From Mugil cephalus (Eukaryota > Chordata > Actinopteri > Mugiliformes > Mugilidae), in the NCBI RefSeq assembly GCF_022458985.1, contig NC_061773.1, forward strand, positions 20,122,001 through 20,186,000: 64,000 bases of DNA, given 5' to 3'. A program made the translations under genes and the position numbers. A model generated the notes under the pieces. The model worked only from the letters and a program-made list of their open reading frames with translations. It searched no databases and had not been told where the DNA came from. Of this stretch, positions 54,901 to 57,197 are shown piece after piece (position 1 is the first letter of the stretch; each line of letters starts with the position of its first letter).

Positions 54901-55708
54901 GACTGCTCTTCCGTTAGCTTGTAAGACGCAACATTTATAGTCCCGCCGCGCAAACCGATTAAACCCTCTGTCCGTACGCTTAGGCTGCAAAGTGGAGTCC
55001 ATCCGCATCAACGTGGACGCGGTCAATACACACAGAGAGAGACCTGAGGTGGGTATAACGACACACACACACACACACACACACAGTAGAACCAACAAAC
55101 AGGTTGGTCCAGTAGCTTCACAACATAATGGTGTTGTTGTGATGTTTCACTGCAGCGCTCAGACATAGTACAGATCATATTCAGAGGGCCGTGTTTTAAT
55201 AATGAATGCAGAGCAGGTGGATCATAGCTGAACACAAACGATGACTAATGCTCCTACTGCTGCGACCACATTTTCACCTTCACGCCCTTTAGGTAAATAC
55301 GCCCCAGGGGCACGTGTCACTCTGTGTTCTACGTGTTCTGGTAACGAATAACGTTGTGAGTGTGCGTAGTTTACTGTGAGTGGTAAAAGGCTCAGAAAAG
55401 CAGCTGAAAACATTTATTCACACTTTGGGATTTGGGTTTTTTTTAGATGATTGACTTTCACCAATAAAGTTTGTTTGTGGGTTTTTTTTTCTTTTTTTTT
55501 GTTTTTGTAGCAGATCACACAAAGACGCAGAGATGAAAACCCTCGCACGTGTTTCTTTCACCCTCTTGTGTGTTACTGTGTGCGCGTACAGTGTGTGTTT
55601 GTGTTTTGATTCCTCCTCCTCTTTGTTTGTTGTTTTTTTATCGAACAGAACGTAGAGGTGTCGCGGATGTCAGAGGAGGCTTTGCTAACGGTGCCAGCTC
55701 ACCAATGA
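49000..55708 (+). CDS. pfkfb4: 6-phosphofructo-2-kinase/fructose-2,6-bisphosphatase 4 (14 coding exons, 474 aa)
   Basis: A bifunctional cytosolic homodimer that makes and degrades fructose-2,6-bisphosphate, the activator of phosphofructokinase-1, and so sets glycolytic flux. Exons: 49000-49111, 50231-50347, 50438-50534, 50608-50674, 50769-50843, 50928-50984, 51079-51200, 52460-52667, 52748-52894, 52989-53093, 53655-53784, 54834-54896, 54984-55048, 55649-55708. The kinase half has Walker A GLPARGKT (51-58). The phosphatase half has LCRHGESE with phospho-accepting His262, and ICHQAVMRC with His396. [15 protein letters not shown] and the end TVPAHQ identify PFKFB4. Human is 469 aa. The start at 49000 has a good Kozak context. 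An in-frame ATG 87 bases upstream (48913) would add 29 residues. A second terminal exon lies downstream. Confidence 0.95.
49303..49326. repeat. (CTG)n trinucleotide repeat
   Basis: Seven to eight CTG/GCT units in the first intron of pfkfb4. The apparent alanine run in one frame is not supported as coding. Confidence 0.85.
49575..49599. repeat. poly-A tract
   Basis: More than 20 consecutive A in pfkfb4 intron 1. Confidence 0.85.
49856..50088. mobile_element. fish LINE 3'-region relic in pfkfb4 intron 1
   Basis: Contains, in order, CGCTCATCCTCACTAGGGTC, TCTATCCCAGCTGCCATTGA, GAGGCGGGGTACAACCTGGA, GGTCGCCAGTCTATCACAGG and GGAACATGCAAATTCCACCC. This run of motifs belongs to a very abundant teleost non-LTR retrotransposon 3' region. 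The copy is diverged and has no ORF. Confidence 0.65.
51201..52459 (+). other. pfkfb4: pfkfb4 intron 7, with a retro-repeat in its 3' half
   Basis: The first 850 bases are AT-rich with nothing recognisable. The part from about 52105 is a dispersed repeat, listed separately. Confidence 0.5.
52105..52310. mobile_element. dispersed retro-repeat
   Basis: AATGATCCACAAGGGAAATT, then GATGAGCTGTTATTCAGCTG and GGAAGATCTGTAGCTGAATC, occur in the order seen in a common teleost retrotransposon-derived repeat. The copy is diverged and no coding capacity remains. The family is not certain. Confidence 0.45.
53094..53654 (+). other. pfkfb4: pfkfb4 intron 10, no element seen
   Basis: Contains a (TG)n stretch near 53318-53350 and short frames without signatures. 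Confidence 0.5.
53940..54160. mobile_element. probable dispersed retro-repeat in pfkfb4 intron 11
   Basis: GGGACAGTGCATATTAATTA, later TGCTAATTTTCCGTCGTAGTC, and an ACAGACAGA-rich tail resemble a repeat dispersed in fish genomes. The boundaries and family are uncertain. The rest of the intron, to 54833, shows nothing recognisable. Confidence 0.35.
55061..55085. repeat. (AC)n microsatellite just after the pfkfb4 exon 13 donor
   Basis: About 12 AC units starting 13 bases after the donor of exon 13. Confidence 0.9.
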
Positions 55709-56247
55709 GGCAGTGCCCCCTCGACCCCACATCCCCCACACCCCCCCTCCTCCGACCCCCCTCCTTTCTCTTACGCTTCATTACGCACAATGAACCCTCC
55801 AGACAACGTACCTTCCTAAATCACTGATCGAGTCTCTCGCCACTGTTCTTGTCTTCTGTTTTGCCTCGACTTGTATCCTAAGACGTGCTGATGGTGGCAA
55901 TTGACTGGAATCCAGTTTCTAATTTTCCGATTATTAATCCTGTCACGGATCTATGGGTCGCGCACGTTCTCCTATTTTTGGAGAATAAATGAAAAGCAGA
56001 TGAAGTTTTTTTTTTTTTTGTTGCTTTTATTATAATTATTATTTTTTTTTTTTTTCATCCAACTGTGAAGCAATGAAACGCCAGCACCTTTTCTGTTGAA
56101 GCTTTGATTACGAGTAGCTCATGTTCTTATTGATCTGAAGTCATTTTTATCATCATGTTGACGTCTTGCCGGTGTCTCGTCACTTTATATTTTTGTTGGT
56201 TATTTGTCAAGAAGCTCTAATCTCAGTTTGACAGCACCGCACAACAC

Positions 56248-56253
56248 AATAAA
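56248..56253 (+). terminator. polyadenylation signal for the proximal pfkfb4 terminal exon
   Basis: AATAAA about 540 bases after the stop at 55708. Further candidates lie at about 55984 and 56435. Any of these would end transcripts before the distal terminal exon. Confidence 0.5.
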
Positions 56254-57137
56254 GTTGTGCCTATTCTTCTATTTTGCACATTAAAAAAAATGAACTGTTT
56301 AGTCTTTTTTAGGATGTCCAACATTGTCTAATGATGCTCTTGGATGTGCACATATACGCTGTTATTTTTATTGTTAAACAGTATATTCACATCAGACGTA
56401 AATAAGAGGAAGGTGTTTCTGTTCACTGTCTCTAAATAAACTCCACTCAACCACTTCATGATTCCTCACCACACGCTTTGTTGTGCATCATTTTAGAAAG
56501 CTTGGCATGAAAGCAGCGTTGCTGTTTAATAACAAGGACATGAACTTAGTAGCAAACGCTGGCCTGGATTGTTCTTACTCGAAGATCAAGCGACGCTTGC
56601 CATTTCCTCCACATCTGTACTTATCTGCACATCAAATGTTCAGTGCTCTGCCCTTCCTGCTCTCCTCCGCCGCACAAACACGAAGGCGCAGAGATTTTTT
56701 TCCCCCCCTCGTTCATTTACATGCAAAGACTCCACTGGGTTGAATAACAAACTGCTGCCATTCATCAGCCCGAACAAAACCCTCACTGTGCCGTGGCACA
56801 GATTTCTGTCCGCCTGGAGATCCTACAACGCTCGCTTTAATGTTTACGCTTTTAGACAAGGAGTTAATAATGATAAAAATGAAAGCAAGCATTTAAATAT
56901 ACAATACAAGCCTCGTGCTATAAGCAAATCCACATGACTCATGAAATGACATCACGTATAAAAATGAACAACACAAATATAGGCATGAAACTGCCAGCCC
57001 AGCAACAGAGTAAATAATCTGTTCTAGTCTCATTCAAAAAAGCTGAAAACTGGTGTCATGGAAACGGACTTGAAAACAGTGTTGACTTGATGTGTGTTTG
57101 CACAAGGCCTCTGACGCTGTTGCGTTCCTCCTTCCAG

Positions 57138-57197
57138 AATGTGAATATCCATCGTACAACTGAAGACGCCCTGCAGACCGTGCCTCCTCACTTCTGA
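57138..57197 (+). CDS. pfkfb4: second, homologous terminal coding exon of pfkfb4
   Basis: After a strong acceptor (CTCCTTCCAG) the sequence encodes NVNIHRTTEDALQTVPPHF and a stop. It has the same length (60 bases), the same phase 0 and 10 of 19 residues identical to the proximal terminal exon ([19 protein letters not shown]). It is not the next exon of one transcript, because both end in stops; it must be a mutually exclusive alternative last exon joined to exon 13. A distal AATAAA at 57893-57898 supports its use. Its residues also resemble the PFKFB1-type C-terminus (EEAL-TVPAHY). The protein would again be 474 aa. Expression is not shown by the sequence. Confidence 0.65.
   Translation, partial: NVNIHRTTEDALQTVPPHF

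Follow-up and report, generated by a model that had tools for sequence, protein, structure and literature searches.

Two homologous candidate last exons in a fish pfkfb4 gene

The pfkfb4 locus and its neighbours

The DNA analysed is a single stretch of 64 kb, referred to here as the window, and all coordinates are positions within it. It carries a complete PFKFB coding region, pfkfb4, on the plus strand (Table 1). All pfkfb4 introns are of the GT-AG type, and the reading frame is unbroken across the splices. At the amino acid level, the predicted protein matches the Pfam families 6PF2K (E 9e-102) and His_Phos_1 (E 4.5e-42), and both matches pass the curated cut-off.

The top match of the protein in the PDB is 1bif (E 3.2e-268, 893 bits), presumably rat testis PFKFB4, although the PDB match itself names the enzyme only. 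Lower matches are 1k6m (762 bits), presumably human liver PFKFB1, 2axn (isozyme 3, 741 bits) and 5htk (isozyme 2, 720 bits), bit scores that compare chains of unequal length, the 1k6m chain having 432 residues. The gene is nearer to PFKFB4 than to PFKFB1, PFKFB2 or PFKFB3. A tail ending in AHQ is found both in the proximal last exon and in 1bif, and this ending is absent from the distal tail.

Upstream of the ATG at 49000, a further in-frame ATG is present, and the segment 48913-48999 (plus strand) would add 29 residues to the protein. Ahead of the 48913 ATG, the reading frame remains open back to 48736. The upstream extension displays an N-terminal RRS motif that is reminiscent of the regulated N-termini of other PFKFBs.

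Ten frames of the window were run against Pfam and four matched; these are pfkfb4, a piece of a dynein heavy chain at 16087-16392 and two pieces of arpc4 (Pfam ARPC4, E 5.1e-28 and 1.3e-14). The arpc4 exons, at 60214-61346 on the minus strand, are convergent with pfkfb4. The frame at 30527-30874 has no Pfam match, but displays a likeness in the PDB to MAP kinase-activated protein kinases 2 and 3 (E 1e-15). Downstream of pfkfb4, the word 'cgcaatat' is repeated at 58430-58520 and at 59090-59170, and these short regions are apparently parts of a repetitive element.

Table 1. Features of the pfkfb4 gene, in window coordinates
Feature	Position	Strand	Remarks
pfkfb4 common coding part	49000..55048	+	13 exons, 455 residues, both isoforms
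Coding exons 1-7	49000-49111, 50231-50347, 50438-50534, 50608-50674, 50769-50843, 50928-50984, 51079-51200	+	
Coding exons 8-13	52460-52667, 52748-52894, 52989-53093, 53655-53784, 54834-54896, 54984-55048	+	
Intron to proximal last exon	55049..55648	+	600 nt; T-rich tracts ahead of acceptor
Proximal last exon, coding	55649..55708	+	19 residues and TGA stop; ordinary PFKFB4 tail
Proposed proximal 3' UTR	55709..56010	+	AATAAA at 55984, then long T run; cleavage position inferred
Intron to distal last exon	55049..57137	+	2089 nt; proximal exon inside; candidate
Distal last exon, coding	57138..57197	+	NVNIHRTTEDALQTVPPHF and TGA stop; diverged homologue of proximal tail
Proposed distal 3' UTR	57198..57920	+	AATAAA at 57893; predicted cleavage position

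The two terminal exons and their divergence

A preliminary description of this DNA had proposed that pfkfb4 carries two terminal exons of 60 bases, both in phase 0 and each with an acceptor and a stop. Both exons were found in place, with the proposed peptides and with TGA at their ends. Exon 13 joins either of them in phase 0, CAG precedes each, and splicing in silico gives an intact 474-residue enzyme with the proximal or the distal exon. The proposed count of shared tail residues, 10 of 19, was reproduced, and at the DNA level the exons are identical at 34 of 60 bases.

The similarity between the tails also emerges from searches of the window as a whole. With each 33-residue end of the protein as query, tblastn matched the other terminal exon on the same strand and in frame (E ∼9e-4), a match that includes one query residue from the upstream exon. 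An ungapped six-frame scan of the window with the proximal 19-mer gave 10/19 at the distal exon and 7/19 at the next best site. A chance origin of the match between the tails is therefore unlikely. The exon is short, and a lone open frame of 60 bases would be unremarkable; nevertheless, apart from the proximal exon it is the only site in the window above 7/19. Taken with the simulations of neutral decay given below, this makes it extremely improbable that the distal exon is a chance open frame or a decayed neutral copy without a coding role.

The proximal tail is identical to that of rat PFKFB4 (1bif) at 15 of 19 positions and to that of human PFKFB1 at 12, and the PFKFB1 and PFKFB4 tails are identical to each other at 14 of 19. 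There are 12 positions common to the proximal, rat PFKFB4 and human PFKFB1 tails. The distal tail keeps 10 of these; at the other two, D replaces E and P replaces A. A resemblance of the distal tail to PFKFB1, also put forward in the preliminary description, appears marginal. The BLOSUM62 sums favour it (57 with PFKFB1 and 52 with PFKFB4; 50 with the proximal tail), but the identities are equal, at 11/19 to human PFKFB1 and 11/19 to rat PFKFB4. The likeness is weak because it consists of little beyond an aromatic last residue.

The differences between the two exons fall mostly at third codon positions: 7 are at first, 4 at second and 15 at third positions of the 19 codons, and first and second positions together account for 11 differences in 38 sites. 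A purpose-written Nei-Gojobori count gives a pS of 0.87 and a pN of 0.32, and the Biopython dS for the pair is undefined because of saturation. The pattern was compared with that from a two-branch simulation that covered seven branch lengths, with 20000 runs for each setting. The proximal exon was the starting sequence, and a run counted if it showed 15 or more third-position differences and no more than 11 elsewhere, with the frame open and the stop retained. With both exons constrained, this pattern was reached in at most 5.96% of runs at an omega of 0.15 and in at most 1.49% at an omega of 0.3; with the distal exon neutral, it was reached in at most 0.045% (9 runs). At the most favourable setting of each kind, constraint on both exons thus yields the pattern at ∼130 times the frequency obtained with a neutral distal exon, given simple mutation rules, a coarsely spaced set of branch lengths, 19 codons and the proximal exon as a mere stand-in for the ancestor. 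In a simpler one-branch neutral decay, the frequency of an equally good-looking exon falls from 0.31 after 15 mutations to 0.038 after 26 and to <0.001 by 50. Because a young neutral copy can look equally good, the case for selection depends on the high synonymous divergence.

In its codon positions, the exon pair is thus consistent with two coding exons that have been kept for a long time. The substitution record spans the whole time since duplication and is also compatible with a recent loss of use. Perhaps, then, the distal exon is a formerly working alternative exon that was long kept and is now unused or noisily spliced here, and the presence of a nearby poly(A) signal belonging to the proximal exon would fit such a history. 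However, the distal acceptor, the branch-point-like site, the frame, the stop and the downstream AATAAA are all intact, and disuse is considered unlikely.

Splice sites, 3' ends and origin of the exon pair

The shared donor at 55048 agrees with the consensus at seven of nine positions. The proximal acceptor has 11 pyrimidines in 17 positions, which ties for the fewest among the 14 pfkfb4 acceptors; GAA stands directly ahead of its CAG, and the sole yTnAy motif of the scanned stretch is at -40. In the distal acceptor, 14 of 17 positions are pyrimidines, and yTnAy motifs occur at -53, -48 and -24, the last being CTGAC. The distal acceptor therefore looks better than the proximal one in its pyrimidine tract and in the placement of a branch-point-like motif, in a comparison made by simple counts rather than by a trained splice score and in a gene where several constitutive acceptors are also without yTnAy.

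A CA repeat is found at ∼55061-55085 on the plus strand, ∼12 nt past the shared donor, and is a possible splicing control element. CA repeats can bind hnRNP L, and one near a donor is one possible control point.

The AATAAA motifs that had been reported downstream of each terminal exon were found, three after the proximal exon and four after the distal. In addition to those in Table 1, the proximal set includes 56248 and 56435, and the distal set, in a scan to 58300, includes 58053, 58182 and 58186. Each terminal exon has its own candidate poly(A) signals. No special RNA structure was found in the two 121-base stretches around the terminal exons, which fold ordinarily; their z values are -1.57 (13 of 200 shuffles as stable or more stable) and 0.02 (94 of 200).

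The exon pair had been ascribed to tandem duplication of a terminal exon together with its 3' UTR. The duplication of the exon is well supported by the homology, equal length and common phase 0 of the two copies, by their separate candidate 3' ends and by the codon-like substitutions. The 3' UTR part of the proposal is less secure. There is no significant blastn match between the flanks and UTRs of the copies: the best E is 0.09 with masking and 0.026 without, and the latter consists of T runs only. One weak, C/T-rich match of 18 in 21 bases pairs 55740-55760 with 57222-57242 (plus strand), 32 and 25 bases past the respective stops, and is nearly colinear with the exons. In sets of 500 dinucleotide shuffles, a match at least as good arose 7 times with the first 100 bases and 10 times with the first 300. 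Of 1270 plus-strand windows, that of the distal post-stop stretch ranks first, narrowly (27, runner-up 26). The match may be a trace of the start of a copied UTR, or it may have arisen by chance in C-rich sequence.

A larger duplication was also considered, in which the distal exon would be the last remnant of a second, tandem pfkfb gene and not a copy of a lone exon. The exon lies downstream and on the same strand, as this origin would predict, and partial gene duplications do decay. However, no other pfkfb exon remnants were found in the window by tblastn with the 455-residue common part: at E values up to 10 there were eight weak extra matches, the best with an E of 0.20, and none lies within 55048-64000. 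In addition, the first gene detected beyond pfkfb4 on the downstream side is arpc4, on the opposite strand. A tandem gene is thus a very unlikely source, and even with such an origin the present-day gene would have an alternative last exon.

In terms of identity, the distal tail falls outside the PFKFB1-PFKFB4 pair and would suit a duplication that took place before those genes separated; the comparison covers 19 positions, and the same identities would result if the distal exon had evolved faster. Perhaps the distal tail diverged ahead of the PFKFB1-PFKFB4 split, was retained in this lineage and was lost or overlooked in mammals, with two conserved tails on the bisphosphatase side chosen by tissue or oxygen state. 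This proposal is speculative and is rather doubtful at present.

The reading preferred here, with a probability of about 0.8, is that pfkfb4 has two homologous alternative last exons derived from an old terminal-exon duplication, each with its own candidate poly(A) signals. The choice between them is probably a genuine splicing alternative of a known general kind. The donor at 55048 would have two alternative partners, the acceptors of the exons that start at 55649 and 57138. Where the proximal acceptor is recognized, the transcript would end at a poly(A) signal from 55984 on and encode the standard PFKFB4 tail. Where it is skipped before cleavage, the distal acceptor would be used, and the transcript would end near 57893 with the other tail and the other 3' UTR. 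The choice might be set by the speed of transcription, the strength of cleavage or splicing factors. We infer transcription of both exons, the order of the choice and a tuning of activity or regulation by the exchange of tails. The layout is familiar from regulated alternative last exons: a weak acceptor and an early poly(A) signal on the proximal side compete with a stronger acceptor further on. The distal isoform may be rare, given the promising poly(A) site that follows the proximal exon.

Because the catalytic core is identical, the two isoforms would be distinguished solely by their final 19 residues, which adjoin the bisphosphatase domain, and by the 3' UTR. In PFKFB enzymes, the modulation of kinase and bisphosphatase activity, and with it the activity differences between isoenzymes, is presumed to lie in regions beyond the catalytic core (PMC4178209). 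The likeliest effect of a change of tail would therefore be a shift in the balance of kinase to bisphosphatase or in its control.

Terminal-exon choice in the PFKFB family

PFKFB2 has a terminal exon 15A or 15B, which gives rise to forms of 58 and 54 kDa (PMC3002928, PMC4178209). Exon 15A encodes 54 unique residues with phosphorylation sites, and the other form is without those sites (PMC3002928). The two forms have 505 and 471 residues (PMC6131595), and from these totals and the 54 residues of 15A the 15B tail is ∼20 residues long. PFKFB2 thus resembles the present case in belonging to the same enzyme family, in producing two C-terminal tails by a choice of terminal exon and in a 15B length close to the 19 residues found here, length being the only basis on which 15B was compared. 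It differs in that its tails are unlike in length, whereas both pfkfb4 tails have 19 residues and are homologous to each other.

In PFKFB3, six C-terminal splice variants have been described and more are listed (PMC4178209, PMC8263283). Here too the variation affects exons of the C-terminal tail in a member of the same family, but the PFKFB3 variants combine several C-terminal exons. The PFKFB3 chain 2axn aligns with the pfkfb4 protein only to residue 457, i.e. residue 2 of the tail. Several splice variants of mammalian PFKFB4 itself, with catalytic domains unchanged, have been reported (PMC7926708, PMC6131595). These concern the same gene, but a second homologous last exon is not mentioned in the portions of the descriptions cited.

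In another protein, tropomyosin 1, the terminal exons are homologous to each other. Exons 9a-9b and 9d of this gene contain both coding sequence and 3' UTR and distinguish muscle from non-muscle forms (PMC8419188). The pfkfb4 exons would share with them the property of being alternative terminal exons that carry coding sequence and a 3' UTR. Tropomyosin 1 differs in that its function is actin binding and not metabolic control, and in that the choice of exon was demonstrated by transcript sequencing. Tandem duplication of terminal exons has been linked to mutually exclusive choice, for example in Drosophila pip (PMC9013439). The pip gene has eight repeated clusters, in contrast to the two exons of pfkfb4 with at most one weak match between their flanks.

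Alternative last exons of fish pfkfb4 were not found in the literature searched by title and start of abstract, in which subscription journals are mostly outside coverage. The portion of PMC6448481 consulted has no mention of splicing of PFKFB4 itself, and six-letter strings from the tails do not occur in the literature searched. In fish gene databases, the two exons may well already appear as annotated isoforms. Contigs were also scanned with six short peptides of the shared core, which detect close relatives only. None of seven pattern matches in viral contigs is a relative; among 96 in genome contigs one is, a bacterial sequence with 25% identity over the phosphatase region that is irrelevant to the exon pair, and none is from a vertebrate.

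The pfkfb4 exon pair is a new case of a known kind and does not represent a new type of mechanism. The rate of glycolysis depends on fructose 2,6-bisphosphate, whose level is set by PFKFB enzymes. If both tails are kept by selection on an identical core, each with its own UTR, the gene would provide a natural experiment on the role of the tail. The exon pair suggests that the choice of C-terminal exon is a recurrent control point of the PFKFB family, with PFKFB4 now included.
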